Positions 16,425 to 60,442 of a DNA stretch of 64,000 nt are shown here, one piece after another. The notes under the pieces were generated by a model, which did no database searches, was not told the origin of the DNA, and worked only from the letters and a program-made list of their open reading frames with translations. The position numbers and the translations under genes are program-made. The DNA is from Anas platyrhynchos (lineage: Eukaryota; Chordata; Aves; Anseriformes; Anatidae), in contig NC_092606.1 of assembly GCF_047663525.1 (NCBI RefSeq), forward strand, positions 4,028,501-4,092,500. Reading direction: 5' to 3'. Numbering within the stretch: the stretch's first letter is position 1; every line of letters begins with the position of its first letter.

Positions 16425-16505
16425 TTAGTCTTGTGCAGGAAGCATCTTCTTGCTGCTATCTTCTTGCTCCATCATGATCTTGTATTTTCTTTTGAAAAAG
16501 CCAAA
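16425..16505 (-). CDS. ITGAE: ITGAE exon 36: cytoplasmic tail with GFFKR, stop codon
   Basis: The last coding exon encodes [18 protein letters not shown] plus eight residues and TAA. GFFKR (residues 1386-1390) is the universal integrin alpha membrane-proximal motif that clasps the beta tail. The tail beyond it is shorter than in human and its sequence differs. The acceptor (TCTCAG) is preceded by a TTTG microsatellite that serves as its pyrimidine tract. Confidence 0.93.
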   Translation of the reverse strand, partial: FGFFKRKYKIMMEQEDSSKKMLPAQD

Positions 16506-19500
16506 CTGAGAGAAAAAACAAACAAACAAACAAACAAACAAACAAAAACCTTAAGTCTTTGTGAATGCATTATTTTTTCCCTTTTCTTAAAAATAAAAAG
16601 AAAATTCCAAGTTTTTCCCTGTCAGAGTCACAGTAAGTGAATGAATAAATGCAGGATGCAACCCAGGTATGACTTCTGACAGAGTTATAAGCCTAAAGGC
16701 TGACATTGTTCAAAACTCTTCAGAACATCTATAAACACCTCAAAACATCCAAGCATTCGGTAAAGTACTTCAAAACAGGTCTTTAGAGGCTACACTGCAA
16801 TGCTCAAAATAGCTCAAAATGTAAGACTGAGGTCTTACAACAGTAAGTGGCAGAGGTCTTTCAATGAGCATTTGAAAAAAACTGTTTTCATACTTGGAGA
16901 AATCTTAAAAGCATGCATGCATCTTACAAAAAGATTTCTGTTTTGTTGTGTGTGCGTGAAGGATACCCACCTTCCAGAGAAGCAGAATAATGAACAACAG
17001 CACGAGAAGTCCACCAATAGAGCTTTGTATGACAATAGGTACAGGATCAAACACTTCCTCTTTCAGGAAGATAAGAGTTATCTGAAACAGAATCAAGGCC
17101 AAATTATCACATACTGAAGCCCGGTTATCTTTTTCTCATCAGCTTTTAACTGAGAAAGCTATTTAGTTTGAGCTAGCATTCAAACTTTAAACTCTATGCT
17201 AGATGCCCCATTAATCTACCTCTGCAGATACTTTGTAATGCAATATTAAAGTTTTTTTTGTTTTGTTTTGTTTTATGGTTTTTATTATTCCAAGACTAGT
17301 CAAGGGAATTAAATTTACTAAGTCTTCATTATGAGTTTACAGCGATTACAACAGTCACCAGTGACAATTTTCAGAATAAAAACCATGACTTTCCAAGGGA
17401 GAGAGGACGATTATTCATGTTGAAATCCTTGAGAAGACAAGAGGTCTCTGTATTAGCCAGACATGTTAGAGGATAAACAGAGTTCCACATAGAACTTCTC
17501 AGATTGTTGATCTGCACTAGCAAATATCCTCCCTTTGTTTTCATCCTATCATCAAAACCTGATTTTACTAAATTCAATAGCGGAAAAGCTATTTGCTTTA
17601 AAGGGCCCAGGATCTAATTCTGGAGACATCATTGGTTCTCTGGGTTCAGCAAAACCATCTGGATTTGTCACTTGTTACTGCCCCTAAAAAAGGAACAAGC
17701 TGCCTGCACAATGCTCAGATACCTCAGTATTATGTTCCTCTTCTCTCAGCCCCTGATATAGTTGCCTGTCGAAGGTGATTTTTGCAGGGATCAGGAGGTC
17801 AATTCTTCTTTTCAAGAACTATGGAGTAAGAAGTAGAAGGCACAAAACATGAGTTACTTTTCAGTCTTGTCTGGAGGGAAAAAAAAAGTGTCACATGTTG
17901 CAACAGCAAATCCTTCTTCAGACTGCAAGAACTACCCTGTGTAGTGCTGCCACCAAGCTGAATACTGCGTACATCTCCTTCCATGCGACTATCAGTAATG
18001 AGAAATTGTCTAGACCAAACCTTGTGGTATTGGAACAATCATTTCACGGGCAGCAATTTCTGAAGGAAGTAAGGAGAATGCAGCAGCTCTTCTAAGAGCC
18101 AAGTGCCCCCTGGGAGGCTCTGCCATGAATAAAACATCACTTTTGCTCCACAGGGTCAGAAAATAGCATCATACGCAGAAGAGCAAAATCTCTGCTGGGA
18201 TGCAGAATAAATCCTTGCATGAAACCTCTGGCAGCTAGCAGATTTTAGCAAACAAACCCAGAGAAGTGTGGTCTTTCGCATATACCTGGTCTGCGTTAAT
18301 TAAGGACAATTCAGCTGCCACGGTGATGTTTTCATTATCTGCTTGGATGGAACAATACACACACTGATACTTCACGTCCTGAGTGACCTGCAACGAGAGG
18401 GATGTCAACCACGGGTAAACTCCCTGGATGACACGGGTACCCACCCTGTCACCTTGTGGTAAACTGCTGCAACAGCAGCAAGGACCAACCTGGCTCACCT
18501 CTAGTTCTGTGCTGTTGGAATAGTCCCTTAGATGAAGCACCAGTTCATCGCTGATTCTGCACTCTGTTGTACCCTGAAATTGAACAGTTACAGCTCAGTG
18601 CCTTGACCACGATGCCAATGCATGTACAGAGCGGTGTGGTAGCGCTGCAAAGGCCGGGACAGCCCCAGCCCAGAGGAAAGCCCCAACCCAGAGGAATCAT
18701 GGAATCATTAAGGTTGGAAAAGACCTTCAAGATCATCTGGTCCAACCATTCCCCTTATCACCAATACCACCCACTGAACCACGTCCCCAAGCACCACGTC
18801 CAACCTTTCCATATACACCCCCAGGGCTGGTGACCCAACACCTCCCTGGGCAACCTATTCCAATGCCTGACTGCTCTTTCTGAGAAGAAACGTCTCCTAA
18901 TTTCCAACTTGAACCTCTCCTGATGCAACTTGAGGCCATTCCCTCTAGTCCTATCACTGATTATCTCAGCCCCGATGAGGCCACACGTGGAGTGCTGTGT
19001 CCAGTTGTGGGCTTCCCGGTACAAGAGGGCCATGGGACTACTGGAGTGAGCTCAGATGAGAGCTAAAATGATTAGATGACTGGAGCACCTGTTGTACAAG
19101 AACAGGCTGTTGTACCAGGCCTGTTTAGCCTGGGAAAGGGAAGACTGAGTGGAGACCACATTCATATACATAAAGATCTGAGGGGAGTGTGTTGAGAGGA
19201 TGCATCCAGACTCCTTTCAGTCGTGCCCAGTGACAGGACGAGATGCAAGAGGCACAAACAGGAGGTTCTGGCTCAATATGAGGGAGTACTTCTTTGCTGT
19301 GAGGGGGACAGAGCGCTGGGACAGGCTGCCCACAGAGGCTGCGGATTCTCCTCTAGAGAAATACAAGCCCCGCTGGACACCGCCCTGCCCAAGGCGCTCG
19401 GGGCAACCCCTCTCACAACATGGGGATGGGACCACTTCCTCTCCCCGCCTCCCTTCCACCGTCGGCCATTTTGAGCCCGTGCCCGCCCCGCCCCGCTCCC

Positions 19501-22500
19501 GCCCGCCGCAGTCTCGCGAGGCCCCGTTTGAAACGGCGGCGGGCGGGCGGGCTCGGCGGCTCCCCTCAGGCAGGCCCGGCCCGGCCATGCCGCTGCAGCC
19601 GCGGCTCCTCCGCACGTACTCGCGGCGCGGCGGCCACCTCCGCCCGCTGCCTCAGCCCTCCCGCTGGATTTCGCCGCCTCAGGACCGCAGGCGGCTCTTC
19701 AGCTCCACCTCGGCCGGCTCCAGCTCCGCTTGCTCCAGCGCCCTCTCCGCCGCTTCGGACGACCCCGATTTCTCTCCGCCCGGCAAGCGCCGCCGGCAGC
19801 CGCTGGGTGAGCGCCCCGCCCGGGCTCGGTGTCTGCGGAGCCGGCGCGGCGCCGCCACTCAGGAGAAGGATGGGAAGGAGAACCGGCCGCCCGCCCTCAG
19901 CTCCCCGTCGCCTTCCCCGCTGCCTCCCCGCGCCGCCCGCCGCCGCCAGGGGCCGTCCCGCGGGGCTCGGCGCCCCCTGCTCTGCAGCACCCCGCAGTGG
20001 GCGCCCCGCCGGAGCCGCCGCACGCCGCCGGCCGAGCTGAGACTGGAGGGGGGCGGCTCGGGGCTGCAGGGCAGCCTGGAGCTCTTCTCGTCGCCCGGAG
20101 GGGGGCAGGACGCCTCGCTCGGCAGCGAGCCCGGCACGCCCGAGTCGTTGAGGGGAGAGGCGGAGGTGGAGGCGTCGCCACAAAGGGTCGGCAGGGTTCT
20201 GAGGGCGTCCGTGCGGGGAGCCCTGTTCCTGCAGCAAAGCACAAGTGTTCCTCCCGCTCGCGGTGAGCCCCTGCACTCCACCCCCTGTGGTGGTGGCAGG
20301 GCCGAAGAGCCAGGCGATGAGGTAAAGGGAGGTTCAGCAGAAGGAAGCCTGAGCGCTCAGGGAGGGAAAACCAAGCTCCAGTCAACGCCGGTGGTGGTCT
20401 TGAACCGTCAGGAAGTGCCGCTGTGGCTGACGAGCATGAAAGCTGACAAGAAGGCAGGTGCTCAGCCTTCCTGCCAGAAGCCAGCGTCACCTTTAGGCCC
20501 TCAAGGAACGGTGGAGTATAAAAACAAACGCACCAAGGTCGGTTCTGCAGAGGGAAGTGCCTGTAGAAGAGCTTGCATCAGTGGCTTCAGTGCCAAGCGG
20601 TGGGATAGACAACTGAGGCTCTGTCCCCAAAGACTCAAAAATAAGAGACAGCAGCAGGCTAATAACTCCTCTTTCAGACCCCAACTAAGACCAAAAGGAA
20701 GGAAGAAGGGTGGTCGGGAAATATCTGTAGATACAAGAGACAACGATTGTTCATTCCTCAATAACTCCTATGCCTGGGGTAGACTTCGAGCATCTTTGTA
20801 CTTCCATAAGAAAAAGAAAGTTACTGCAGACGAGTGTTCCTACAATAGCATCCTTTGTACCCCTTCTGTGAATTCCGAGGTTACAGGGCACCAAGCAACC
20901 CCAAATTCTAGTATGGCTCAGTACTGTGCTTTATCTGCTTCCTCCATGATACTGCTGGTTCCCAGGAATGCCTGTTCAGGCCTGGAGGTAATGCTTACAG
21001 ATGCAGAGAAGGTTTTGGGGGAATGCCAGCAGGAGAGACCTATCACTTTTGAGGAATGCATTCCTTTAGATAAGATGAAAGATTGCAAGAAAATTGGAGA
21101 AGGGGTGTTCGGAGAGGTTTTCCAGATTGACAGTAATAGAGGACCTGTGGCCTTAAAAATAATTCCCATTGAGGGGACTGAAAGAGTGAATGGTGAAGCT
21201 CAAAAAAGCTTTGGAGAGATTCTACCAGAGATAATAATTTCAAAGGAACTCAGTCTTCTGTCTGAAGAGTCTGTGAACAGGACTGTAGGGTTTGTTAGCT
21301 TGTACTCTGTGCACTGTGTTCAAGGGGCCTATCCTAAGTATCTCTTAGAAGCTTGGGACAAATATGATAAAGTAACAGGATCAGAAAATGATCGGCCAGA
21401 CCTTTTTGGGAAAGAGCAACTCTTCATGGTTCTGGAGTTTGAATTTGGAGGCAGTGACTTGGAGAACATGAGAAAAAGATTGAATTCGGTGGCTTCAGCA
21501 AAAAGCATTTTGCACCAGGTGACTGCTTCCCTGGCTGTGGCAGAACAGGAACTGCACTTTGAGCACAGAGACTTACACTGGGGGAATGTGCTGGTAAAGA
21601 AAACAGATGTCAAAGAGCTTAATTATGTGTTAAATGGGACGACGTGCACAATCCCCACACGTGGGATCCATGTCAACATCATAGATTATACCTTGTCTCG
21701 TCTGGAGAAAGATGGGTTAACTGTATTTTGTGACCTTTCCACTGACGAAGAGCTGTTCCAAGGCACGGGAGACTACCAGTTTGATATCTACAGGCAAATG
21801 AAAGCAGAGAACTCCAACAGCTGGACTGACTATCATCCACACAGCAATGTCCTCTGGTTGCACTATTTGTCAGATAAACTTTTGAAAGATGTGGTTTACA
21901 AGAAAAAAGAATCAAATTCTGTCTTGAGAAAAATAAAGCAGCAGCTCATTAAGTTCCGTAAAGAAGTATTGACCTTTGGGTCTGCCAGTGAAGTTTTGCA
22001 TAGCAGCAGCCTCTTCCAGTGAGTAAAGGGGCACAATGCTTCCAAGAACTAAGTCACTGATGCCCCTTTCTCCTTTGTCTTTTTTCTCTATGGTCTTTTT
22101 AAATGTTGACATGATGAAGAAATGTTACAATCAGTTACCAGTATGAAAAATGTGTAAAAATGCACAAAAAAAGCCACCTGCTTTAAGATGTTTCCATATG
22201 TACTTTTTTGAGGGGTGAGGGTGAAAGGGAACAGACTTGACATTGGAGGTGGGGGGAAGAGATCTCTTCAGGCTTATTAGTTCATGTCCTGAATTCCACT
22301 TAGATTATTAGAAGCTCTTCCCTTACTATATTTATTTCTTACAAATTCAAACAAACAAACAAAAAGATAGACAAAGGTAAATATTGTTAGCCCAGTTAGG
22401 GATAGAAAGGGAGAGAACACCTACCTTTTGACTTAGTTTTTAAAACGAACTTTTGCTCAGTTTGGCCCAACATGTACTTGGAATAATGCTATAAAATTTC

Positions 22501-25500
22501 CTGAAGTTTCTGTAGTGTAGTTTTTAAAAAAAAATCTTAATCTGCAATAATACAACCTTTTTTCCTCTGTAAGGGCCAGCGAAGAGGTATTGTGTTATGG
22601 GGAAAAAAACAAAAACAAAAAAACAAAACACAAACAGGAAGTACCTGTGTTCCTGATGCATTTTTCACAGTTGCTATGTTCTGACCTTGTACAATGACAG
22701 GAACCCAAATCTGTAACTTGATGGTAGCATTAAAGCGATTTTCTCCATTTATCTACGGAAGAAAATGCACAAGGTAAGTGTTCTTTAGTCCTGATTGCAG
22801 ACAGATGAGATGAACTAAATTTGAAGCTATACTTACATTAAATTTAAATTCCTTGTTTTCAAGTAGTCCTTGGCGAACGTTCATGTACATTAAAGACACT
22901 GGCCTGCAGAGGAAGATAAATTAAAACTAAGTGAACATTGAATTTAATTATTATTGAACATCAGTACATCCAGTGATCCACATGCATTAAGTAATAAGGA
23001 GGTAGCATGATCAAATTTGTTAAAGAGGAATGTTAGTTACAGTCTGTATATGGGCATATATGCAGTCTATCAATTAGATGCATCCTTGAAGCAATCTTGA
23101 AGGTATTTTTAAATCAGTTAAATAGTTAAGGGTTTATATTTGACCCTAGTTATCTCCCTGCCTATGATGTTTTGTTGTTCCATCTTCCAGACTCTTTACT
23201 TTTGCTGTCTTATACCACAGAAAGCAACTTGACAACCTGCAATGCTTGAAACTATTAAGATGGAAATTGTGCTGGAATCCTACCAGGCATCCTCTCAACC
23301 CTTTTTTCCTCTAATTGACTAAAGTAATATAATGTAATTGAATATTCTTAAAACTTACTTGGTAAGAACTGCAGTGAACACATATCTGACATCAAGGACA
23401 TGTTTTTCAGTCAGAATGGTGGTATTTTCATTTATGCTTTAAAAGAAAAAAAAAATAATTTGATGAAACAGCTTTATTATCTGCCTGCCTTGGTTTTCTA
23501 TTTCTATGGTTGCCAGATTGTGGATATTTGCTATACAAGAGGGATGGAAACACGGAATGGCAGTAACTTATGAAAGAAGGGGTGCCATCCTGCTCTCCTG
23601 TGGGTTAACATACTGCAGTAATGTTGGAGTAGCCCTTCATTACTATGGATTTTGGAAGCTGCCATTGCCTTGGAATATTTCTCCACATATTCCCATTTGT
23701 GAATACGTAATAATGCCTTAATTAATCAAAATTTAAAAGCTTCTCACCCTTCAAAAAATCTGGACATTAAACTCATGTATAAACCTTTGCCTTAAAGTGT
23801 ACTTGCAGTGAAGTTGCCAGAGATGAGTCCTCATTTCCTTTTTAAAAATGCTTTTTAATAAAGTGCTGTGTGCTAATCAGTCCCATTCAAGTTAATGAGA
23901 GGAATGTGACAAGAAAGGAATAGTAACTTCCCTGTATTAGAAAGCCCTGATCGAGAAAAATAACTTGAATACATCCTCATCCTGACTATTTGGAATAATA
24001 GTTCTACTTGGAACAGAGCTGGATTATGTTACTCATCTGTTTTCTCTGATAACGAAGGAGGATGTCAGAACCAAGTTTTCCAGTTTAGGAAACACAAGGT
24101 TTTAAATACATACTATACTTAAATTAGGAACTTAAGGGATATTCTATCTTTTACTGAAATAATGAAGTAAGAGCAAAGCTAAAATAATAAAGGAAAGATT
24201 TTTTATATGGGTCCAAATGCTTTAGGAGATTGAAAAGGACAAGTACAATTTTGTGAAACTAGTGACAGATAAATAGTATGGATACTGAATAGGAATTACA
24301 GAATTTCTTTTACAGTGTATTTTGTGTTGAAAATAGCAATACTCACTTGGTGATATTAACAGTGATTGCAGATTTATTTGGGAATACACTTTCATCTAAT
24401 TGCCAAATCACGGAGAACGTTGCCTATTTTGAGGAAAGAGAAAGATATAACAAAATATTGATTACCTGTAAATACAGTCTTTAACTCACCAGGATACTGT
24501 TAAAACATGATAGCTAATGTATTTTCTGCTCAGCATTCCTTTCTGGAAGAGTTAAAGTGCAGGAATTTGGAAACTATCACTTGTCTTGAGAAAATGCATG
24601 TGGGTAATAAGCTGAATTTGAAAGAAGAGATGCTATGGCTTAACTGTAAAGGTGGGGGATGCCAGCACAGCTACTCAAAGTACCATTTAGAGGAAGGGAA
24701 AAATGAAAATTATCATCTCCACTTACTGTTGTCTTCTTGAATACTGGATGCCCAATTCTGCAGTTCAAGGATATCTCCACAGAAGTGAATTGTATTGGCA
24801 GGCCACAGTGAACAGCAGGAGAGGATGGCTGCCAACAGAACAAGGATGCTCTTCAATAGCAATAAAAATAAACTGGGAAATTCAATTCTGTCTGCTCCCA
24901 TAAAATGAATTAGGTGCAAGTAGCCCAATAAAACCTTGGGAGTCTTAGATAAATCTAGTAATTCAGGCTGTATTTCTGACAACTAAAATACTGTCCCTCC
25001 CCCAACCTTTATTCAAGATTCACTTAGGTAGTAAATGAATGGGAGGCAGAGTTGTGTTTTCTTTCAGCACTGTTTTCTTTCTGCAACTAGCTGAACAGTT
25101 GTTTTGTGATCTTACCTCAGCTGTCACCTTCTTAAAATGGAGATTTTTAGGATAGTACAAGACCATAGTTGTCATGTATGAGTCATCTCCACTGTTATTT
25201 AGTAAAAAATTCATGGACACTTCTTTAGTGTAGCCCACCACTAATTCGTTTCTAGAAGCAGAGAGAAAAATATTAGGCTTCATGTAAAAGAAGTTACATG
25301 TAATTTCTTGAAGTTTGTTTTTAAATAAGAGACCTATTTTGGTTCTGGTAATAACTCCCTTGAAGTACTTTCACACACAGGATAATGCAACAGCTCAATT
25401 AATTATTCATTATTGTTCAGGGTGTGTAGGAAAATGCTTTCTTCTTAATATTGAAAGCAGTTATCTCCAAACTTTAGGTAACATTTTTTTTGTTTCTCTT

Positions 25501-28500
25501 TTACATCAACAGCTTTTAAACATTGTTCCAGCTGATTAATTTTCCAGTGAGTCTCCAGGGTGACTTTTTACAATGAAGTAAACAAAATGCCTTATGCACA
25601 AAGATGGCCTGTTATATGAATGCTAAATAAAAAAAAATCCAAGTAATACAACTACTTTGACTCACTGAATCTGACTTGTCAAAGTTAAATGAGCAGTACA
25701 GATGGTCTTGTTGCAGTCCTTCTTGTAAGGCAACTGAAAGCAAACACAGATCAAGTTAAAATTTAACAGTCCTGATTTTTCCAAGGTAGCAGGTTTAACA
25801 TATCTTTACGTATACACATACATACAGGGGTCCTTCTCTGAAAATCAAAATTCCCTTGACCTCAGTTAAGGAGAAGTTGGACAAAAAGGACCCTCTAGTG
25901 ATGCAGTAAGTAGTGCAGTTTGTAATTTAACTCCCAGGAAAAGTTCTGATTTCATTAGGACATAAAGTCTTCAGCGGCGGTAAGGTCTTGTTAAACAATT
26001 GCCAGTTGTTTATACCTAGATTGCCACAGGACAATAATGTTAATTTTCAGGGACAATGTGTTTTTCTTGAATAAACATTTTCATATGATATATGTATGCC
26101 ATTTTATAGGCTCACTATTTTGTAGCGATGAGGTTACTTCCTTTAGCAATAGTTTTATTCAACAATAAAAATCTGTCTGTGGCTGATGTTTCTGCAGAAG
26201 TTCAGTGAAAATTAATAGTTAGCTTTGGGGTGCACAAGTAATAAGCAAAACTGACCAACAGTCAAGAATCTCATGAATTATTCTTAGGATATAAATGTAT
26301 CATCATAATGTCTAAGACTATGGCAACTATGGTAATTAGTGTTCATTATCACTCAGTGCTAAGTGTGATACTAACTTTTCTGTCCTACGCTTTATTGACT
26401 GCTAATTAAATATTGAATTGTGGTTTAAGACACCTATTAAGCAGCCAAAGATGCCTCTGTAAAGAGCTTTGTGATTTGGATTTTAGAGTAACTGTGAAAA
26501 AGGGCCAGATTAACGTGTCCTGAACTGCAAGTGCGGAAACAGGATCTCAAACTTAGAGGTTCAGTTCATTGGGAGTTTGCAGCGTTACAACTATTGCTTT
26601 GAAACGAGTAAATCTAAACAAATTATATATGTATACCTAATTTTAATTATTTTTAAAATCCATTCACTCAAAAATTTTGTAGGTATTACTACTAAGTACA
26701 CCGTTCAAATGATGAAAAGTACTTCACAAAACATAAAACCAATCTGCCTTCTTCACATGTAGCATCTAATCTCATCTTAAACAGAGACCCAGGAGGAATG
26801 TGGTCAAAAGTAAAAGGTTGGATCCTAGAGAGGAGATTCTCTTAATAGGGTAATAGTATCTGTTTGGGGGAAACCTGGGCCTAAAGTCTACCTGGAATAC
26901 AATAATGATAACTAGAAAAGCTAGCAGAGGGGAGAAGGCAACATACAAAGGCTAAGAAAAACATGATTATTATTCTTTTTAATAGTAAAGGCTTTGCATT
27001 GTGGAAAGAGAAGAGCTCTTCAGTATTTTATTACCTGAAAATGCATTTCTGATGGCTGATATTTATCAAGCACAGGAACAGCAAACTCCGTCCTATCATT
27101 TTTCTCACAGAGCTCATATTTAACTCTCAGATAAACATTGGAAAAACAGTCGAAGTCACATGGCTACAAGAAAGGAAGAACATGAAACTGATAAAATATC
27201 TGGATATTAAAATGCAAAACAGTCTTCACACATTACATGTTACAGCTTCTGTCATGTGGCATATTTAGGGACCTTCTGACTTAGATGTTACCTTTAGGCC
27301 ACTGATTTTAATAGCCATCAGTGGACCATAAATTTGCCAAATGTTTTTTGAGGGATTTTATACATTTGGCTCCCATGACATCCACTGGGTAATGCATTCA
27401 CCAATTCAGTTATACATTGTAAAAAATGGTTTCCCTTATGTTTGTTTAAATCCTTTAGAGTTTCATGACTCTCTGACAACTCTTGCATTATAAATACTTC
27501 ACACAAACCCAACAGGATGACAGTTTGATTTATAGGAATACAAATCAAGATGGTACACATTCCCCTCAGCTATAAAACATGCTTAGCAAGTCTAACACCC
27601 AGAAAAAACACCCAATTATAGTAATTTTGCATTTCAAGGGAGATTAATCATCATGCAGATTCCGTTAAAAATCCTCTCCTCTTAACCCTTCTTTCTGTAG
27701 TGAGTCTGACCAACATCACCTACCAGCGTGAAAAGCTGCAGCTCAGAGCATGTGTGCTCTCTGACTAAGAGCTTTCCACTTGTTGTGGTGTTCTGATCCT
27801 TAAACTGTAATCTCTTCTTTGCCTTTTTCACATCTAAGTCCACCGTGTAGAGAATATGTAACTGTGAAAACACTGGAAACACAGACAGGAATTTCTTGTG
27901 TGCTCAGAACAAAGCAATTGCAAAGCATCAGTGAATGAAGGGGAACAGAGTTCTGATCTGTAGCTCCAACATTCACAGAAGAGGAAAAAAACATGGTGAT
28001 ATATTTCCAACATCTTCCCATAAGCCAAGCAAAATGGAAAAGCTTTTCCAATGACCCCTACATTGCCTGCTCATGCACCCTACAAAGGATCTGAAAGTTT
28101 AGGCTGAGATACAATATGCAAGATTTTCAAAATTCTTTTCAGATGTACCAGAAATTGTCCACAATGCCAAGTTTCTAATATGGTGTAGGACCATAGATTT
28201 TAGTCTGATCACAATTCCCATTTATTACCTTGTTGAGACACTGGTAAAGCTGAGGTTATATTGAAACACAGTTTTGCTGTAACAATGCTGCTGCTGTTCT
28301 GGAAAATTACTATTCTCTCAGGGTTGAATCTCATGCTGGTGAGAAAGTGAACAACTGGTCTCGAGCTAGCCAGTGGAGAGCAAATAAGAAACAGAATTAA
28401 ATTTTTGAAACATTCAGGAAAAAATATTTTAAGAAATCCTGGCAGCAAGCTTAACAAGTGCTCAGCTTTTCCATGATATTTCACCTGGACCAAGCTAGCC

Positions 28501-31500
28501 TATTTACAGAAGTTCCAGTTTCTGCTGGGAACACTGAGAATGTACAAAATCCCATGAGCCTGAAGGAACAGACAGCCAAAATATACCAATATAGCTAGAG
28601 TTTCAGAATTAAACTCACTGTTTATGTTTCCATTAGATGAACTCATTATCTAGTGGTAAAAATTCTCTATTTATCTACAATTTGTTTCCAAATACAAAAT
28701 GCAAGAACAAAATCAAATCTGCTCATCATGTCTTAGCCCTTGTGAACTCCACAAGTCATTCAGCTACCAGACATCTGATTGGAAATAAGGCAAGGTTTGT
28801 CAAGAAGATTTTTTGTCTAAATGACTAAAACCATCAGTGCTGAATTATAGACGTTAACCAATTAACATACATCTTAATGTTCATTATCTCATACTTGCAT
28901 TCAAAGGCAAAAGCCTTTGCAACTTGAGCTAATAGCTTTACATTTTATAGGATTTCTTCTAGCACTGGGAAAGATTTTTTTAATGTCTGTCCAATGCCAA
29001 ATTAAAAATAGAATCATTACACAGTGCTTGGAACACAGATTCTAAATTTGTCTTTGAAACATTTCCCCAACACACTAAAATGTAGCACTCATTACCTACC
29101 GGAGCACAACCACATTCTCCAGTGATCCTACTGTAATATCATGGAGACCATCATTAGTGAAATCAAAACCACCATCAATGGATTGTCCAAAATACTGGAG
29201 TCCTGCTGATATTTCAGAGGCTTTTACTCTCTAATAGGAAAGACACAACAGCAAATATAAGTCAGGATCTCCCTCCTGTCCTTTGAAAAATACACTTCTT
29301 TTCATGAGGCTGTTGTGAGGTTGATTTTGTAACACTCCTGACACACAAAATATTGGCTATTAACTTATTATAGATGGTCAGGCTTACAAAATAATACATT
29401 TTTCTATAGGCAGCACATGAATCCAGCTCCCTTGCCTAAGCAGACAAGCGAATAACTGCAAGTAAGGAGCAGGTCTGCTGCAGAAGCCTGTGGACTCATA
29501 TAAACCATCCAACACCTGCAAATTTCTCACTCATCAACAGAAATGTGATGTGAAAGTCCTTCCTCCCATCCTCTTGCTACAAAAACACAAGCTTTTCCCT
29601 CCCATAGTGGACTGGAGACAAGTCCCAACAAGACACGTACTTGAGAATAAGAGCTCCTGATCTTGTCCTTTTCACCATTGAAGATGTAAATGCTCCCAAA
29701 AGAGGAACTGTTTGAAAGATGACCTTCAAGGGGGGCTCCAACTGCAATATCCTCATATCCATCCCCGTTGATGTCTCCAATGCTGGCCATGGTAAACCCA
29801 AACCTTGCAAACTGAGTGGTCACCTGCACATTTAAATGTCCTTCCAAGGTGAATGAACCAGTCTGAAATACACCCGAGAAAGAAATCCCTTTAGACAACT
29901 GTAACTCTTACATAAGGGAAAAAAAAAAAAAAAAAAAAAAAAAAAGACCTCACTACACATTGGTAGTACTTAAAATGTGAACAATAAAGCCCTAAACCAT
30001 AAGAGATTCAAGATAACAGCTAATTTTCAGACCAAAAGCTTGATCCAACTCCATGCAAATTCTCCCACAGAAGCAGTGTCCCTGGACAGCCCTATGCAAG
30101 CAGACACACTTACAGTACTATCAGTTTTTAAATCATGAGCAGATTGAGTTGATCCCCTGCTTGTTTCAAGCACTACGTTACAGAAATAAGCCACAAGAGG
30201 GTGCAAGTTGTTTGAATTCGAATGGATGCCCAGACCGTTTTCTGCTTCCAACAATTTGGTATGTGCCCTGAGCAAATTTTAGCAGTGCACCACTGAGAGC
30301 TTATCCTGGTTTGCATGTTCAGTTCTCACTCACAATGATGCAATTAACATATATCCTGGATATATGCATCTGGTATACTGGATCCAGTAGCTGGGCCCAC
30401 AAAACGTTTTGTTTTCTTCAGTCCTGGGAAGTAAAGTTTTAGCAGCTACCAATGTATACATTTAGTGCAAACATTGAGAAAAAAAAAAAAAAAAACAAAA
30501 ACATTGTTTGGCAGAGCAAACTATACACCAAAAAATGCCTAGGTACAGGCAAAAGACACAATTTTATCACACCGTGATATCTGTGTACCTTAGGTACAGA
30601 ATGGTTTTATTTCTATTTTTTTTTCTCTTTCATATTCTAATGACTAAGACAGGACTGCTGGCTTCATCCTGCAGTCCTCTACCATACAGGGAGAGCACTC
30701 TCAGTGAGAGCACAAAGGAGGAATGTTTTATTTGTCACTACTTAGGCATGGTTGGAAAATCCCCAACATGGAGTGTTTACGCTACCAGTGTTTTTACCTC
30801 TGTCTCCAGGCGATAGACGTAAACCCTTCCTTCTTCCCCTTGGATGTGATAAAATGGAGCTCCAACAAGGAGAAGATCTGTCTCCCCATCACGGTTCACA
30901 TCAAGCGGGCAGAGCTCAGAGCCAAAATAAGATCCGACCTGGGCTCCAGAAAAAGACAAGCAGCTCTTTCACTGGAATTCTCTATATATAGCTTTGTAGA
31001 ATTAGCGTCCTTTGCAACAGTAAGGCAATTTTTAGAACAAAACATCACATATCTACTTATATGTGGATCACTTCACTATTATTTATTACATTACTGCCAT
31101 CCTCGGGGACAGATCCTGTAACCAGCATAACAGTACCAAAATCATTATTCAACAATGTGACAGAATAAAAAGCAAAATAACACAGTTGATGACGTCTTTC
31201 CCCATGAGCCATGAGAACAGAACATAAATATAGTACACCCCACTTAGTTAAATGTCTTCCCACTCTTTTTCCAAATTTCATGATTTCTTCTGGTGTTCCC
31301 AAAGTATTATGGAGTGAACTAAGACTGTATAATCCACATCTAGCTAAATCAGATGCTCGGCAGTTCTCTGATTCCTACTTGTGAGACCTCTAACCAATGA
31401 AAATATGGTGAGGTAAGTGTGCCAGTACCCTCCAGCAGCCTGCTGCGAGCAGTTCAACTTTGATAATTTCCCCCAGCTGAGCAACTTGTCCCAGAAACTT

Positions 31501-34500
31501 AGACTTCAACAAATCTCATCTAAAAAAATGAGGCTGCATGACCATAGTGGGTTTAACAGTAATAATAAGGCTAATGGATTTATTCAAACATTTATAATGG
31601 CTTTACTCTTGCTTCAAAGGGTGTAAATTTGTCTGGAGAAAATGAGGCTGTTGCTTGAGCAATCTAGATGTATGCAGCACCCCTGACCCCTACTGACCTG
31701 CTTGCCCCTGCGTGAGTGAAGCACCGTACCTGTTCTCCTTGCAGGGTTTGTTTCAAGTGGCCATCCTGAAACACCAATACCTTCCCTGTCATGCTGTGCC
31801 GTGGAGCTCCAGCCACGTACAAGGGTCCATATCCTGTGCGCACCACTGCCACGCTGTATCCTGGTGCATTCACACAAGGAGCAAAAAGATCATACGTGTC
31901 AGTACCATACTCTAGGCCTGAAGGAAGAAGCCCACAGAGCTTGGACTGAGGTAATTGACTAAACTGCTGCTCTGAAAAACCTGCTTGAACTCTTGACGAC
32001 TTTTCTTAGCATTTGTCACAGTTCCTGAATGCTTATCAAATATACAAACCTTTTTTTAAAAAAAAAAATTATTAAATTAATTATTAATTAATTATCTCTG
32101 CAAGCTAGCGGGCTTAGAATCCTTCATAGAAGTGAGGGAAACATTATATTCCATATAAAATGCAAAAATAGATATGTTATGGGGCTTTTGTAACAGGAAG
32201 GTAATGAGAGAAGGATTATCCTGACACAACCAGTCCACAGCACCTCATATGACCTGGAAGAACTGCAAGACCAAGGCTACAGTCAGAATACAGGGATCAT
32301 AAGGGTACAAAGCACTGGGGTGAATAAGCAAGGCCTTATTTGTCACTACGCCAAGAACATTATTGATTCACAAACTGTTTCTTCTCCAGACACTCACAGC
32401 AAGTCAAACATTTATACTTATCAGCTCACAAAAATGCCCTTCACTGTGTTCTTATGCTGTGAAACCAAATGGATGCGTTAACAGAATAGCACCACAATAC
32501 ATCATAACTCGTAAGAGCAAATAGGCTGTACAAGGAGACAGTGTTTGCATTAGAATCTCTGTTCCTGTTATGGAAAATATTAAAAATTCAGCTAGAGCTG
32601 GAGATGGTCTCCACGTAAATGCTGTCAGTGCCAGCACACGCTGCACTACATATAAACAAACAGAACTGCAGTCAGGTTGTCACTGATCTCAAGAGAGGGG
32701 TAAGTTGCTTACCTAGGTAACTATACTTTGCTTTTTCGGCTTCTTCTTTTGATTCATTCAAGAAAACAGCTTTCTTGGCTGCCAGATCATACAGCAGAAT
32801 TCCACCAGACCAGTCAAAGGCACCCACAGCACCAAACATTAAGACTCGCTGCAGAAATAACATAGTGCAAATTAAAATGGAGGAAGAGAGGGCAATTGCC
32901 AGTGCTAGTGACCTCTATCAGTCTGCAAAGCTCCTTAGTAGGTTGCAATGTTTTCCGGATTACAACTCTGCACTGTTTCCTGGACCATGTAGCATGGGCA
33001 GTTTTACTGGCTCTTAGTATTGAAGGTGCAAGGTGACTGCCCAACACCAGAGAAGCAGCTGCACATCTCCCAGTTATCTACACGTCATTGTTTGCAAAAT
33101 CCAATCACTGTTATCCTTACAGCCAATGCTACTAAATGTTCATTAGCTTCCTCAGCTTCCACTGTCTTCCCCTCCTGACAAGGACAGAGATCATGCTTTT
33201 CTTGGATGGACCAGTGTTTTAAGCCAGAGGATTCTGAAAGAGCGGAATTATTTTATTTGCAACATGATGGAGTCCCTGGTCTTGTGCTCTGGAGACACAA
33301 ATGCCAACTAAATCAAAGCTGTCAACTGAAGTTAGCTCTTTCGTGCATTGGAATAAAAAGGATCCAGTAGTTATAACAGGGGTCATGTGAGACAGATCCC
33401 ATCCTAAAATAAAATTCACAACTGACATTTAAAAAGTGATATTTTTTCAAAGCAAGCAATGGCTTGCAAATGAGATTTGACTACATAGTTCTCAAACTTC
33501 TGTATCAGCATCATTTCTTGCATAAGACCTTCTGAATCCTTCCAAGTATTAAAACGGCAGCACAACATGCAACTATTTAGCAGGGTTAAATGCAGAATAC
33601 TTGCCTTATCCAAAATCTGCACACTGAAACCAGATTGTGCAAGTTCATATTCCAGAGCATCACCCTGAGTACCTGACAATGCAAAAGAAACAGGGTGAGC
33701 CACTTTTTCCTTATACCTCAGAAGTTACCAATGAAATAGAAAAACTTCTGTTTACCTTCTATCCCAATAATACTCTGCTGCAGGGTCGAAAGCAGCCCAT
33801 CTAATGCTGAATAATTGGTCACCTGAAATACATTAGTGTCATCTGGACCAGATGCAATCAGCCGCAACTCATTCAGGGCCTTTGGTTTTTTGAAGGCATC
33901 CCCTACCTGCAGAAGAGATGCAAATTAATCAGAAGAAGCAACCTTTAGAATCCTCTTATTCTCCCATGTACTTAAGGATGGAATCACTTGAGTTGGTGGT
34001 AAAAATTTCAGCTTCAACCACCCTACGTAAACCCAGAAATAGCAATTGATTTGGAAGCCAGTGAACTAGACAATTTGAATGTCTCCTGGAACCAGACCTT
34101 TACAAAACATTTACAGAACATCTTCATGTAACTGGCTGGTGCAGTATTTGGTGTATATAACTTTGTTGTACCCAACAACGAAGTTTGGAAATCAGTAAGT
34201 CACATGGAATCATAAAATCAAACATCTTCCTCTGTAAGAGAAAGGATGAGAAGAGATAGCTGAATGACATTACTAGAAGGCAAGGGTAATAGTGTGAGAA
34301 GAAACCTACCAGAGACTTGAACTGAGAAACCCTCACGCCTGACATAATTTTTGATCACATTTGTTTTTCTTTATCATTTATCAGTTCATATAATTTACTG
34401 GAGGCACACATGGTTCAGTTCTCCTTTTCTCCCCCTGCCTGGTGCCACCCAGAGATGGAAGGAAGATATGATCCAAGTAGGTTCCCAACTTACCCCAATA

Positions 34501-37500
34501 GCATAGCGCTCAATTCCTGCCATTTTGGGTGAACTTATCACTGTTGTCAAGTTCATTTCATCCAGAAGTATTTCCCCATCTGTAAGCACGATCATGATCT
34601 TGGCTGCATCCTTCTGGGATCCGTGACTTTCAATGAAGATAGAATCCCTGGTAAAACATAAAAATAAGTAAATAAATAAATAATATTTGCAGCTAACAGT
34701 CATAGCAAGGAGACAAGAAATTTTCTTTCACATTCATTTATCTTAAAATGGCCAAGAGCTGTCTCTTTCTATAACTTCCTGAGTCCCCTCATACCAGCAA
34801 TTTCACACTGACAGATGACTTTTACAACCTTCTAAAACATGGCACAGAAACTGCTGCCTGCCATTCAGCCTCTTCCAAATAAACAGGACTGCTTTCAGGA
34901 CCTGAATATTCATGGAAGTCCCTCTCCCTTACTCATGAAATGCCCCAGAAATCACCTTCATCATTTCTTGAGCTCCTTTTTTCTGTTACTTACAGGGCAT
35001 GTTGCATGGCAGATGCTGTTTTTGTCACATTGCACACCTGCACAATATCAAGTACTTTCTGGAGGGTGGCATTTGGATTCCAGCTTTCTCGCAGGTCAAA
35101 CTCAGTTTTGATTTCAAAGCCATACTGCACCACTGCAAAATCACACTGGAAGAAAGCAGCAAGTAAGCATCTGCTTGTGACAACTGTTGATTCAGAGAAT
35201 GAGAGCTCTCTACAACAACTAGCCCAGAAATCCCGAAAGAAAATGTTATCCAGACTGTGTAGAAATAACATATTCTTAATGAGCAAGTGGCTCTTAAATA
35301 TGTGTAATGCGGAAACAAGGATTGTTGTAAATATTTTATAGGTGAGGAAAATTAAAACACTGTCAGTACAGACAGAAAAAAATTGTTTTGGGAAACACAA
35401 ATTTGTTTTTAAGTACTTGCATTTTCCTGTTATGTTTTTGGCACATGTGCAGGTTTCAGAGAGGATTATCTGTAATATTAGTGCATCGTTCCTTCATTTT
35501 CCAGGATGATCTGATTATCGTTGCTTTTGTGCTTGTGGGTATAGATGTTACGATATGGGAACAGAGACAGAAAACAAGGAAGTCACGACCGTCACCTTGT
35601 ACGAAAGCAGAGATGGTGCTCACTGAGCTCCAAGCATAGCAGGGCTAGGGATTTCTATGCAAACAAACCACAGACTATTCTCTCTACAGTGTTGTTAGGA
35701 TCAAGACTGAGGACCTACTGCTATGTAAGCAAAATGACATCAAGAACACATGCAAGCTACAGAAGTGCCTTCCCATCCTAATGGAAATAAACCTGCACAG
35801 TCCCAAATTCTGGCAAAGAGGCAGGTTAAACGAAGCACAGCACACTTTGTACTTTTAGCCTGCCGAAGAGAGTAGGGAGTACCTCAAAGCACTTCTCATA
35901 CAGTGTTTTCATCATCTTGTGGATGAATGCTTTTGCTCTTTCAAAATCCTCTGGCTCAATGCTCCCTGATCCATCCAAAATAAAAGCAATCTCTGTCCCA
36001 GAGCCTGCCAGGATATGGAAAATAAAGGAGTAAGGAGAAGGCTCCCTGGAGCTCAGTAATGTTGGTCAGGACCAAGTTCTTTATCCAGTGTTATCAATCA
36101 ACACACAAATAATCTCACTCCAACAGCAACTGAATGGCACCAAGACCGCCCACTGTCATTTTAGTGTGAGCCACAGCTCAGCTCTGGAAGCTTACAGCAC
36201 AGCAACCCCCCCAGATTTCATCAGTTCATGACAGTCCACAGCATGATTCTGTTGAAAGATACTTCACCACGTACGCAAGCCATTTTCCTCCTCCTCCTCT
36301 TTGTCGCTCTCCATCCAGGAAGGAAGCGTGCTGCCACCATTGTCATTAATGTTTCTGCGTCCTGGTGTCTCAGTTGGCATACTTTCATCTGCAACAGAAA
36401 AAAAAAAATTGAATATAGGTGACAGGGAACAGGGAGAGAAAACAAAGAGTGAACTGAAACCTTGCATTATTGCCCATGCAGTGTTCCTGCACCTTGCTGC
36501 CTGGCAGCTGAACTCTTCCTCATCCCTGCAGTATATAGAGGATCATATTGCTTTCAGGTTCAAGAGTATGGGTGCTATGGAAAAAATTGTGAGTTTTGAA
36601 GGCTGTGGGGATCAGGTCTTCATCTTTAAAAAACAGCTACAGTTTAATAGAAATAAATTGCTCCCAGTACACCCAGAAGTGTAAGTATCATAATAGAAAC
36701 AGTGAAAGGAAGATGAATGTGTACATTTTAAAGCACCTATTGCAATCCATCTGTCTTTCCATACTAATGTTTTGGCTGCAGGTCACAGATACAGAATGTG
36801 ATCTCTTGTCCTCCTGGTTGGCTGGCTAAGGAGGACTGTTATGAACGTAACAGAAATAATTTTTATTTGTTTTACTGTTGCTGGGCAGGTGACTGCAAGA
36901 ACAGGCTAAGACCTGGATGGATGTATTTATGTTCCCTAAGCAATGAAGCCACCCACCATCACAGATCTACTCTATAAGTTACAGCTAAGAGAGATGTGTG
37001 AGGAGTGGAATTTCTTCTACCTGACTCAATCAGAGCGTCTCTCTGCAACTCTGAAAGGAAACCATCAAAATCTTCATATGCAGACAACGTGAGCCAGTCA
37101 CTTCTAGCCTTCTGCAGATCTTCTGGGACCCACTGGTTGCTAACAAACTCTCCAATCTAGGGAGAAAAGCCAACAGCCATGGAGACTGCATGTTTCATAC
37201 ACACACAGACAATTGCCTTAATTAAAAACTTGACAGCCTGAAAGGGAGGGAGTTTTCTGAAAGCTTGGTAAAGCAGCCCTGATCCTAGATTGCACAGAAA
37301 AACCTTATTTGCAAAGAAAAGGCTAAGAAAAGCTTTAGAGCCGTAAGAATTATACAAGTCAGACACTTCTATTTCTACAACTTATTCCTTGACACCCTCC
37401 AAAACAAGCTCTCTGGAATCAAGAAGACAGAGGCCTGGGAGAGTCAAGGGAGCCACAAGAGCATCTCATATTGCACATCCTGCATGTCTAATGCAACACT

Positions 37501-40500
37501 TTTTCTTCCATCCACTGCTAAAGCATAGAAGTAGACACATGGAGTGGATGGAAACATCTCTATCCAACACATGAGCTTACAAGCAAAAAAATGTGGCTTT
37601 GACGTTTCTTCCTACTCACCTTAGGAGCATAGAGTTTGACCTTAGCCATTTTGAGGGAGTTCATCACATTTCTCAGCTGATAGTCTTCTATAAACACTTG
37701 TCCAGATACCATGACAATGATTATCTTGTCAGTCTGTCTGGAGTCATGGCTTTCATTAAAGACTTCATCCCTGTAGAAAAACAAGCCTAGAGGTATTTTA
37801 TGGGACAAGCTATGTCTTCAGAGCCAGGAATCTCAGTGCTGCTGGCAGGGTGCTGATGTTCACTGAACTCTCAGCACACAGAAGTCTGGACAGTACAGAC
37901 ATGCAAAGCACATGCGCACATGATGCTTCCAGGGATGCTGGCTATCCACAACTGATAGCTCTGCCTTCACAAGCAACACACGGGACATTTTTACAATGAA
38001 GTTCAGTGTTGTCAGAGTCATGCTATTGGGATGAAAATGAAGTCAAGGAGGAAAGCAAGACTCCCAGGGAGACCCAGCAGATGAGTGAAAAATATGGGAA
38101 AGGCCTCTGATCTACAAGCACATGCTGAAAGCAAGACACAGGTGACTGCATTTTCATGCTGACGCCCCTATGTCAGCCAGGAAGGACTTCACACTTTGCC
38201 TCTTGGCAATTTCTCCTTGTGAAAGCCAGAATTTGACCTGAGAGACCCCCAGACAGATAGATTCACAGGCCTCTGTTGGCAAAGTCTGTCACTAACAGAA
38301 GCATTGGAAAAGTGATAGCTGTGAGGGTGTGAGAACAAGAAGAATAGAGAGGAGGTGCAGGAGGCTGTATTGATGTACATGAAATGCAACAAATCACTTG
38401 AGTGTCCCAGGGGCTTCCCGAGACACGTGAACTTACAATACATGCTGCAGTGAGGCTGCAATGTCAGTCTGTGAACTCTGCTGCTTCATATTTCGGACCT
38501 TGAAGAGAGCAGTTAATCTGTTGCAGCTTTCTTGCAGGCTCAGTTCAGTTCGGGTCTGTGCTCCATACTGCACCACAGCAAACCTGACCTGGAGAAAGAA
38601 GATGGCAAAGCCATCTTGGTCAGACAAGGATCTCTAAGTCTCTCAGAGCGTCAAGTTCAGTCCCAAACTTTACTGCACAAACACGGAAGGCCTACATTGC
38701 AAATAGTAGGCAGATCAACTATCTTTATCTCTCTGTCACACATTTGTATTCTGGTGTTCCCTTTTGGATCAGCTCCAGGAACTGACTTAATTTTCTTTGG
38801 CTTAAAATGATTTTTCTGTCTGAACTTGCTGTATTTATTTTACCTGTCTGGCCAGATCTTTCGCGACCACATGGCTCAGCCTCACTTTGTCCCCAAATAT
38901 CAGGCTTTATTTAAATCATTCAAAATAATGGTTTATAAGCCTCACTCATTTGTATGTCTACTGCTTCAAGGTGCCCTGAGAGATGTGCCTGGTAAAACAT
39001 GCTACTGGCGTGAAAACTCACTCCTAGCTCTTCCACTCCCATCTTCAGCTACTCCTCATCCTTGGATCACTAACATTTAACTCTTGCATTACAATATGTA
39101 GATTTATTACCAGCATCACTACAAGTAGTTTAAACAGCAGTATGAGAACTGGGGGACTCTTTTTTCCATTCTTCATTAGAGCTCTGGTCATCCTGCCTAC
39201 CAGAAAACAAGACTGAGCAGTTTCACACACCTTTGAGCATTTCTGCCACGTTGACTTCATCATATTGATGACTGAGTTCTTGGTGTTTTGAAAATCATCT
39301 GACTTGGCGTTCTCTGATCCACCCAGAATGACAGCAATCTCTGTTCCCAGTTCTGTCAATGCAGTTAAATATAAAAGAACATTTGAAAAGGCACCAAAAC
39401 ATCCTAACATTTAGCAAGAGTTCAAGAACATTGACATAAACAACAAACCAGAAACAAACAAACAAATATTTGACCACTTCCAGCCATTCTGAAAGCAGGT
39501 CTAGCTGATGATGTGATCTACATGGTAGTAACAAGTTTTATTTTTAAAAAATCTCAGTTAATGATGATGGTAATAGTGATTGAAGTTTACCATAACCTTC
39601 AAAACCTCAACCTTTTCCCTCCCCAGCTCTCTCCTGTCACACAAATACAAGCTGCTTTCAAGGAAGTAATGTTTGTTCATGTCCAGTACTTACCTTTGCA
39701 CATGTGGTTGCTCCATGCACCGCCAAAGTGCTCACCACAAGTAATTCTGACATTGTTTGTGCTAACAGAGCTGCTGGTGGCAGTAAACTTGTCTTTGCTG
39801 TTTCTGCTTTGAATGCCGTTTAATTTGGTCTCAACTTAAAAATAAAGAAAGCAAGAATAAAAAAGACAGTCTACATTTAAAAAATACTCTTCTAATTAAC
39901 ATAACTTAAAATCAGCATCTGTTTCCTAGCGAAGATGAAACGAGACCTTATAGGTGTCTAATGTAATCTTCTCAGATTCTTTGCAATGACTGCAAGTAGC
40001 AGAGCAAGGCCATACAACCAGCGCTCTGCTCCCTTGATTAAATGCCACAATAGCTCAGGCAAGTTGGAAAGAACAACCTTGACTGATCAAGCATTTTTAA
40101 AAATCCCAGCGGATGTCTGTCATATCCATTTGCTAAGAATATAAATGCTTTTCTAAATCCAGGCTTAAGGGCTGGATCTTTTGTATGCACGGGAGACCAC
40201 AACAGAAAATCCCTGGTGCTTTGTGCTGGTCTTCAGGGCTGAACCCTGTAACCCTGCTGAAGTCAGTATAATACATCATAAAATTCAACTCTTAAGTCTC
40301 TCCCAGCGGACCATAGACCTTCCTGCTTAGGAACTCAGAAGGGCCCCGCTGTTAGGTCACAGCCTCATGCTGCTATTTCTGGCCCTCTGCAAAGGCACGG
40401 TGCTGGCTCTGCTCCCATACCCATCCTGGTGAGGTTGAGGAAAGCTGTGCTGCGCAAGTCGGCGGTGAGCAGCGTACAGACTCCGTTCATGTCCTCTGTA

Positions 40501-43500
40501 GTGGTGAAGGCCCGGCGATGCTTCTTCTGCAGGCAAGCCTGTGGGGGTGGCAGGGAAGGCTAATGAATAACGAGCAGAGTCACAGAGGACGACTGAAGAT
40601 GCCATCTGGTGAAGGTTCAGTATCCCCTGCACAGCACTAAAGGCACCCTAGCAAGTGTAAAAAAGCAAGTGGTGACTCCCTTCCCTGATATGACCCCTGC
40701 TGCATCAGCTTAGCCAGGACCTGAGCTCCCACAAAGTGTGAGGCTGGGGTACCCCCAGGCTGAAGGTGGCAGCCTCCAAGTCAGTGGCTCTCAAGCCTTC
40801 TCTGCCAGTCCTCCCTTTTCCTCTGAGTGGGGCTGGCTGCAGGAAGGTAAGAGGTCCACTGCGGTCCCCAGCTGATGAAAATGAAAAGGGCCCTTCTGAG
40901 TTTTCTCTCTTGGCTGGCAAGGCACCAGCTGGCTTTTCCAACCAATCAGTGTCCAGCCAAGAGCTTTCGGTCTTTGTCCTTCTGTTATGTCTGCTCATTT
41001 GTATTTCCCTGCAAACATACACAGTGTTTTGGAAAAATCCAGTCATTCCCAGCCATGGGTGTTTTCAGTCCCTTACCAGGATCCAGTCGGAATTCCTGTC
41101 AATAGCTATGCCACCATCCTGGACGTTTTTGGAGCCTTTAATTTTTCCTGAAATTGAATGAACGATTGAATGAACAAGAGAGGGAAGGAGGGGAGAACAG
41201 TGCGGGTGAAAAAATATTGAAATGGATATGGTACTTATCAGCCTTGGGCAGATAGAATAAGAATCAGTGTTATCAGCAGCTACAGCAATAATTAATATGT
41301 TGGAAACAAAAAACTTTGCCTCTACTTCAACAAAGATTAGGTGAAGACCTAGCTGTGGCAGAAGAGGTCTTGCAGCCTCCAAAGACATCACTCCCAACCT
41401 CTGGGACAATGGGTTTGCATTTCCCTCCATGAAGTGCTGAGTTAAGGGACCTAGCAATGTGCTCAGTACTCTCTGAAACACCTTCCTTCCTCACATCCTC
41501 ATGCCCATGTCAAATCAAGTGTTGGGAAGTAGGACTGTACCTTGCAGAGGTATCTCCTGGCACTGGATCTTGTCCTGCAAAAGAGTGCACTTCCTCAGCC
41601 TGCCCAACCCCTTGTCTATTGAGGAAGTAACCAAAATCCTGTGGAACAAGAGAAAAAGCGGAAAAGAGGGAAGGTGGCACAATCAGGAAGAGTTGTTTGA
41701 TACTGAAGAGTGCTAAAAAAAATCTGTGGGTTAGGATGCCACACCATATCCTGACAACATCTCTCAATTAATTGGACACCGGTGTGGTTTTGAGCTGAAC
41801 AAGCTACTAAGAAAACATTTATTTTCTCCTACAAATCTTCAACCTTCACATTTGTTCCCCTAAAGCCTCTGAACTGGTAGTGCTCCAGGCTGGTTGCACA
41901 CCCAGCCATCACTAGAAGACACCAGTAGCAAATTGCATCTTTGGAAATCGGAACATACAATATCCACACCACCGAGTTTGTTCAGTTTCTCTTTCAGATC
42001 CTTGAGGAAGGGAAGAATGAGGTTCTCCCTCACCACACTGCTGTCCCAAACGGGTTCTGTCTGGGCTGTTGGCAGGGAAAGTTTCCAGCACGCAGCCAGC
42101 AGCTCTTCTGCAGCAGTCTCTGGTCACAGCAGACAGGAGTTTTGCCACTGACTGAACTGGGTTAAAGAAGGGGATTTACTCTCATCCCCCACTTCTCTGT
42201 CACTGCAAGTAGGACTTGATCTGAACAACGAATTCAGGAAAGCTATCCCAGACCAAGGAAGAGGTCTGGAAGTGACTTGCCCATAAAATACTGGAGATAA
42301 AAGGAGGCTAGAATGCAGTAAGGAAGTCCAAACCCCATCCTAGGAAATGGCAGCACTGTCATATGAAATGGAGACTGCTCTGTGAGTCAGCCGCTTTGTG
42401 CTGACAGGATAGGAAAGGTTTCTTTACTCCAGAGCTATCTGCTGCACAGCCTTACTACTTTGCTAAGTGTAATATAGGTTATCTCTATAGCAACCACTTG
42501 TGGTTGGCTTCTATTCACCAGCCTAGCTATCCTTTTCTGTTCCCCTACAAACCCAACAGTCAAAATATAGCAGTTTCTAGCTCTTTATGGTCTTCAGACC
42601 AAGCTCACAACGTAACTTTTGGCAGCTGGTGGGTAGACACGACTGCTGCAGCCCTAAAAACCACATGATATACCAGGGAGCTCTGCAGAAAACCAGTTGC
42701 TTGCTTCTGCCATCTAGTTAAAAGAGCAGACAGCCTTTTTTGCACAGTGCTATGACTTAGCAGAGGGTGAGGGGAGAAGCATCATGAAGGCTAACAAGCT
42801 GACAATGGACACGTAATGATTAAACATTAATATCAGCCCCTAAGAACCAAAGAACAATTCTGGGTCCCAGGCAGAGGAACCTGTAATAACAGTTGTAGAA
42901 AATGAGAAGCTACATGAGCTCAGACCACGATCATTCACAAAGACCTGGGAAGCCTGGATATGTTTTTCTTTCTTCTGTTCCTTACATGGTTTTATTCCCA
43001 TCTGAGTGCTGAAGAACCTTGGGCCACAACGGAGAGTCTGAGTGTGGTGTGATCCACTTCTTGCCAGTGTCAACATTAAAGCTCCTCAAGGACTTGATCA
43101 CTGAAAACAAAAATAAATGAGCACAGAGGGTGACCTGCAGAGTCCTCATTACCAGGACAGGCTCTTGAGCCAGCCGTCCCTGAACCCTACCCACCATGAT
43201 GGCACAGAGACAGCTGGTGGGAAGGAGAGTTACCAAGCTATGGAGATTTCATTCATTTAGATTAACAAATACTTTTCTTGCCCAACCTAACGGAAGATAA
43301 AGAAATGCAAGTCCTGTTTTGGCATCCACAGTCGAGCTTTATAACAGAACAAAACATTCCTGAAGAGAGGTGAACATAGATTTTGCAGGATGTTAAATAA
43401 AAGGAATAATAAAATAAAAAAAGCTCAAAACTTTGCAGCAAGAGAATAAATTCATGCCCCAAATGTTATGGATATTCTGCTGGGGGTGCAGCTCTGCTAA

Positions 43501-60387: not shown

Positions 60388-60442
60388 TTCTAGCAGAGAT
60401 GGTCTTGCAGATCACCAGACGTTCCCCACAGGGAGACTAAAC
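60146..60442 (-). CDS. TRPV2: TRPV2 exon with start codon and part of 5' UTR
   Basis: The coding part is 60146-60387 (242 bp, residues 1-80). It begins [12 protein letters not shown] and ends in the conserved [11 protein letters not shown] consensus acceptor (CCCTTACAG) at 60443-60444 shows that the exon continues 55 bases upstream of the ATG, so at least one non-coding leader exon lies further upstream. Confidence 0.85.

Follow-up and report, generated by a model that had tools for sequence, protein, structure and literature searches.

Integrin alpha subunits have, to our knowledge, been described with either no I-domain or one, and the locus reported here raises the question of whether such a subunit can carry two. 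The gene concerned is that for integrin alpha-E (ITGAE), which lies on the minus strand of a 64,000-nucleotide stretch of Anas platyrhynchos DNA (assembly GCF_047663525.1, contig NC_092606.1, positions 4,028,501 to 4,092,500), hereafter the window. An initial annotation of the window had claimed an alpha-E gene with two consecutive I-domains, and this is borne out by a single open frame with two von Willebrand A (vWA) stretches, an upstream one, I1, and a downstream one, I2. With a probability of roughly 0.7, we read the product as an alpha-E subunit whose loop between propeller blades 2 and 3 would hold an I1 that lacks the metal-ion-dependent adhesion site (MIDAS), an acidic linker and a canonical I2, with I1 acting as a metal-independent accessory domain.

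Two tandem modules in one gene

Exons 3 to 16 form one open frame of 583 amino acids, in which I1 (exons 7-10, 39352-37021), the linker of exon 11 and I2 (exons 12-15, 36004-33756) follow in that order. The two-domain segment had been placed at 33756..39352, which is exact: on the minus strand, 39352 is the first nucleotide of exon 7 and 33756 the last of exon 15. As had also been anticipated, the Pfam VWA profile (PF00092) matches the 583-residue product of exons 3-16 in two stretches. When each domain was searched separately, the profile score was 76.1 bits for I1 (E 5e-21) and 117.1 bits for I2 (E 1e-33), against a cut-off of 23.8. I1 covers positions 2-143 of the 174 in the profile, which identifies it as a vWA fold. 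The landmark segments GTEIA, FAVVQYG, Q-H-L and KMA, first noticed by eye, are present in both I1 and I2. The exons are as follows, all coordinates being those of the window.

40421..43100, minus strand: ITGAE exons 2-5, N-terminal part of the propeller; exons 2 and 5 by tblastn (E 0.018 and 0.068), exons 3-5 by a 25.9-bit alignment, and splice sites
39694..39834, minus strand: exon 6, leading into I1; frame-preserving splice sites, donor AAG/GTAAGT
39231..39352, minus strand: I1 exon 7, first strand with a degenerate DXSXS, GGSEN; 122 nucleotides, length and phases as exon 12
38437..38588, minus strand: I1 exon 8, FAVVQYG strand and QHVL helix; 152 nucleotides, length and phases as exon 13
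37620..37770, minus strand: I1 exon 9, VMVSGQ in place of VLTDGE, and KMA strand; 151 nucleotides against 154 in exon 14, one codon less
37021..37156, minus strand: I1 exon 10, C-terminal strand and helix, I/LEGT gone; 136 nucleotides against 151 in exon 15, five codons less
36275..36388, minus strand: exon 11, acidic linker with RR and EEEEE, at the position of the human alpha-E X-domain; 114 nucleotides, phase 1-1, weak donor (score 1.0)
35883..36004, minus strand: I2 exon 12, intact DGSGS; 122 nucleotides
34994..35145, minus strand: I2 exon 13; 152 nucleotides
34494..34647, minus strand: I2 exon 14, intact LTDG and an NLT sequon equivalent to human N303; 154 nucleotides
33756..33906, minus strand: I2 exon 15, helix 7 and the IEG of the internal ligand, its T supplied by exon 16; 151 nucleotides
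33605..33672, minus strand: exon 16, start of propeller blade 3; following intron begins with GC (AAG/GCAAGT)
16425..32848, minus strand: ITGAE exons 17-35, rest of the propeller, Ig-like legs, transmembrane segment, GFFKR tail and stop; by spliced alignment and Pfam

I1 and I2 have GT-AG splice sites and the same phases (1-0-2-0-1), and their exon lengths of 122/152/151/136 and 122/152/154/151 nucleotides differ only by whole codons. The two proteins are identical at 68 of 188 positions (36%, E 7e-38 by BLASTP), so that the earlier estimate of about 40% was slightly high. By exon, from 7 to 10, the identical residues number 17/41 (41%), 22/51 (43%), 19/50 (38%) and 10/46 (22%). Because only two exon pairs of the genomic modules align by blastn (96 and 62 nucleotides), the rest being pieces of 33 nucleotides or less, a recent copy or an assembly duplication is very unlikely. 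The protein identity and the slight nucleotide similarity thus uphold the view, already put forward, of an ancient and retained duplication that is neither of these. A chance resemblance between the modules is very unlikely as well. No third I-domain copy was found in the window, the best tblastn match beyond I1 and I2 having an E of 0.56.

The surrounding gene is ITGAE, intact from exon 2 onwards. Exons 2-35 were assembled from about 43.1 to 16.4 kb on the minus strand by tblastn, by hand and by spliced alignment. The query was a human alpha-E sequence, of which residues 54-141 and 182-413 were later seen in solved-structure alignments. This query matches most of the ITGAE exons by tblastn; exon 1 was not found in the build from tblastn with human alpha-E and splice sites. 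Exons 3 and 4 are supported by their frame, their splice sites and the 25.9-bit alignment to solved human alpha-E. Exons 16-35 encode 775 amino acids, open through the GFFKR tail to the stop in the spliced alignment, and their product is matched by Pfam FG-GAP, Integrin_A_Ig_1 and Integrin_A_Ig_2. Agreement with the human alpha-E sequence therefore extends across the propeller, the I-domain, the Ig-like legs and the GFFKR tail. The border between exons 31 and 32 is uncertain (donor score -7.2), and the intron after exon 16 starts with GC rather than GT (33603-33604, minus strand); introns starting with GC are a rare but known class.

Additionally, an intronless open reading frame of 940 amino acids for a Haspin kinase (19200-22022, plus strand; PF12330, 258 bits) lies on the opposite strand within a late ITGAE intron. 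The human ITGAE gene presumably holds HASPIN nested in an intron in the same arrangement, and orthology is supported because HASPIN is nested in a later intron here. Human alpha-E (ITGAE/CD103; PDB 9p97, 8zjf) also resembles the protein described here in its propeller and leg domains and, mostly by composition, in the acidic stretch before the I-domain. It differs in having one I-domain; the present gene encodes a further one, devoid of a MIDAS, ahead of the acidic linker.

Residues kept and lost in the upstream domain

I1 was compared with seven other I-domains, I2 included, with residues numbered as in mature human alpha-E (precursor minus 18), a numbering that we take to agree with established use for D190, N303 and E372. 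All five MIDAS positions and E372 are intact in each of the seven. The MIDAS residues D190, S192, S194, T261 and D294 read G, S, N, T and S in I1, so that three of the five are gone, namely both aspartates (D190 to G and D294 to S) and S194 (to N). The E372 column of I1 holds S with E one place earlier, the domain ends in IESD, and the I/LEGT internal-ligand motif is absent. The N303 sequon survives in I2 but not in I1. I2 is canonical, with DXSXS, the MIDAS T and D and the I/LEGT internal ligand all present, and the human alpha-E I-domain is similar to it in its intact MIDAS, N303 sequon and IEGT.

With three MIDAS residues and I/LEGT lost, I1 probably does not function as a canonical I-domain. 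The initial annotation had taken each module for a complete I-domain, which holds for the exon count and the fold profile and fails for function, given the MIDAS and internal-ligand residues missing from I1. This loss in the upstream domain, and the acidic X-type segment between the domains, had gone unnoticed, so that the earlier reading is partly supported.

Tandem vWA domains are also found in the collagen VI arrays and around A1 of von Willebrand factor, which are not integrins. Several vWA domains of these proteins are without a working MIDAS, and von Willebrand factor A1 binds GPIb metal-free. The leukocyte integrin subunits alpha-M, alpha-X and alpha-L and the collagen-binding alpha-1 and alpha-2 have one I-domain each, and all five differ from I1 in that they keep the MIDAS residues and the terminal Glu. 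As in the present gene, their vWA domain lies between blades 2 and 3 of the propeller (PMC12422189).

The core of I1 has fared better than its metal site. Forty-five columns are hydrophobic in all seven other domains, and I1 is hydrophobic in 38 of them, with an overall hydrophobic fraction of 0.41. We therefore read I1 as a domain that appears to have kept its core and given up its metal switch. The cysteines of the domain also vary: C39 is common to the human alpha-E I-domain, I1 and I2, C42 is found in the human domain and I2, and C63 and C79 are new in I1 and I2, respectively (39231-38437 and 36004-34994, minus strand), hinting at a possible rearranged disulfide in I1.

Several observations bear on the constraint under which I1 evolved. 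Between I1 and I2 the synonymous difference (dS) is about 1.29 and the nonsynonymous difference (dN) about 0.58, and the former exceeded the latter in 1000 of 1000 bootstraps. I1 contains no stop and no frameshift over 561 nucleotides. In simulations of unconstrained drift at 0.5 and 0.75 substitutions per site (2000 runs each), stop-free modules were left in 0.4% and 0.15% of runs, respectively. The donor scores of exons 7-10 (9.3, 6.9, 12.3 and 4.6) lie within the range of the other GT donors of the gene. From this constraint, the uninterrupted frame and the donor scores, we infer that I1 was translated for most of its history.

Origin of the upstream domain and of the acidic exon

I1 would have arisen within an alpha-E gene when the I-domain module, four exons with phase 1 at either end, was duplicated. 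In a search of solved structures (177635 distinct sequences), the best matches of I1 were two human alpha-E sequences at 109.5 bits. The third match was the collagen VI alpha-3 chain, whose 106.6 bits are summed across many repeats; its best single domain shown reached 18.4 bits, where human alpha-E reached 108.7. The next-best integrin after alpha-E was alpha-M at 37.8 bits. I2 scored 259 bits against human alpha-E, and it is 64% identical (125/194) to the human alpha-E I-domain. I1 is identical to human alpha-E at 69 of 188 positions (37%), and is thus as far from it as from I2 (68/188).

An I-domain tree of eight domains, two from the window and six human, united I1, I2 and human alpha-E in one clade (support 98/99). 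Derivation of I1 from another integrin is ruled out by the structure-search scores and this clade. Within the clade, I1 and human alpha-E are sisters in the best tree, with a support of 43/0, and forcing I1 with I2 or I2 with human alpha-E costs 0.00 log-likelihood units (approximately unbiased test, p 0.507 and 0.485). The end branch of I1 measures 2.24 and that of I2 0.43. There are 66 sites at which I2 departs from human alpha-E; I1 shares the I2 residue at 11 of these and the human one at 12. As judged from these comparisons, I1 is an old, alpha-E-specific internal duplicate, which may have arisen before or after the mammal split.

The human study describes X, an extra domain before the I-domain, as unique to alpha-E (PMC12422189). 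In the present gene the corresponding acidic exon 11 lies between I1 and I2, and removal of exons 7-10 in frame gives the human layout. Because of this position and this layout, X may have started as the linker of an ancestor with two I-domains. The acidic tail of exon 11 aligns with that of human alpha-E, mostly through composition, as 22 of 500 shuffles score as high. No X counterpart was detected in exon 6 by similarity to human alpha-E, 260 of 500 shuffles being as good.

A broader proposal would make the alpha-E with two I-domains the ancestral amniote form, from which mammals deleted the exon 7-10 cassette and kept X as a leftover linker, I1 elsewhere providing a metal-free ligand surface and hence two ligand modes. 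We consider this decidedly unlikely, as the likeness of exon 11 to X resides mainly in the acidic run, exon 6 is without X similarity and the tree leaves the duplication undated.

Role of the upstream domain and competing explanations

In human alpha-E-beta-7, E-cadherin contributes E31 to complete the MIDAS of the I-domain, and extension of the C-terminal helix lets E372 coordinate that of beta-7 (PMC12422189; preprint PMC10659397). The glycan on N303 contacts E-cadherin in the complex (PMC12422189). I2 would do this known work, binding ligand through its metal site, shifting helix 7 and docking its IEGT glutamate in the beta subunit. I2 joins blade 3 directly. I1 precedes the acidic linker, a position that does not allow it to supply an internal ligand in the usual geometry. 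Having kept the vWA fold and lost the metal site and the internal ligand, I1 would most likely be a metal-independent accessory domain. It could offer an extra adhesive surface and/or serve as a shield, spacer or prop for I2. Such a role is suggested because the ligand and internal-ligand residues and the link to blade 3 belong to I2 and are missing from I1. I1 would then be included in the main transcript, fold stably and have a function.

A number of observations weigh against an accessory role. I1 keeps 7 of the 23 columns that are identical in all seven other domains, and this, like its long end branch, also fits a relaxed or decaying domain. Little of exon 10 is conserved (10/46 residues identical to I2). 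A one-residue gap brings the I1 glutamate into the E372 register, though ESD and not EGT follows it. The constrained I2 branch contributes to the pairwise dN/dS, so that I1 alone may be considerably more relaxed. The acceptor of exon 7 is pyrimidine-poor (5/10, in a range of 4-10 over the 34 listed exons), and I1 can be skipped in frame, the end of exon 6 and the start of exon 11 both being phase 1. I1 may therefore be optional.

Some of these points are shared with the possibility that I1 is a relic, its exons 7-10 usually skipped or its domain decaying, and that the working protein has the mammal-like order of exon 6, X and I2. The frame-preserving skip, the lost MIDAS, the diverged C-terminal exon, the fast branch and the 7/23 retained columns would all be expected of a relic. 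The 561 nucleotides without a stop or frameshift despite a dS of about 1.3, donor scores for exons 7-10 inside the range of other GT donors of the gene and the retained hydrophobic core would not, and we regard a relic as unlikely. Joining of exon 10 to exon 16 likewise keeps the frame (phase 1 on both sides), and I1 and X with I2 could accordingly be alternative cassettes, a splice from exon 10 to exon 16 swapping I2 for a dead I1 to yield a silent decoy integrin. The exon borders fit constitutive inclusion equally well, however, and a subunit with I1 only would be without the IEGT internal ligand that signalling appears to need (judged from PMC12422189), which makes such a swap highly improbable. 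Least credible of all is an assembly artefact or a fusion of two genes by the model, for which we found no supporting point: the modules are 36% identical in protein with no intron similarity above 33 nucleotides, the exon phases suit one gene, and the propeller and leg exons around the modules are single-copy. An accessory I1 beside a canonical I2 remains our preferred reading.

If this reading is true, the loop between blades 2 and 3 tolerates tandem insertions with allosteric activation unbroken. Furthermore, an origin would be offered for the alpha-E-specific X-domain, and the way in which CD103 of this lineage engages epithelium would be predicted to differ from that of human CD103. A search confined to the open-access literature found no integrin alpha subunit with two I-domains. 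The phrase 'two I domains' occurs in PMC5811549 and PMC3726769, which, by their titles and the starts of their abstracts, deal with the alpha-1 and alpha-2 I-domains. Automated gene models may already hold the two-I-domain architecture without comment.

Elsewhere in the window, RNA family models gave no match at gathering score. Exons resembling a TRPV-type channel by eye (52987-60411, minus strand) lie upstream of ITGAE on the same strand. In this region ankyrin repeats score over the cut-off at 57222-57617, and an ion-transport match scores under it at 52987-53394.

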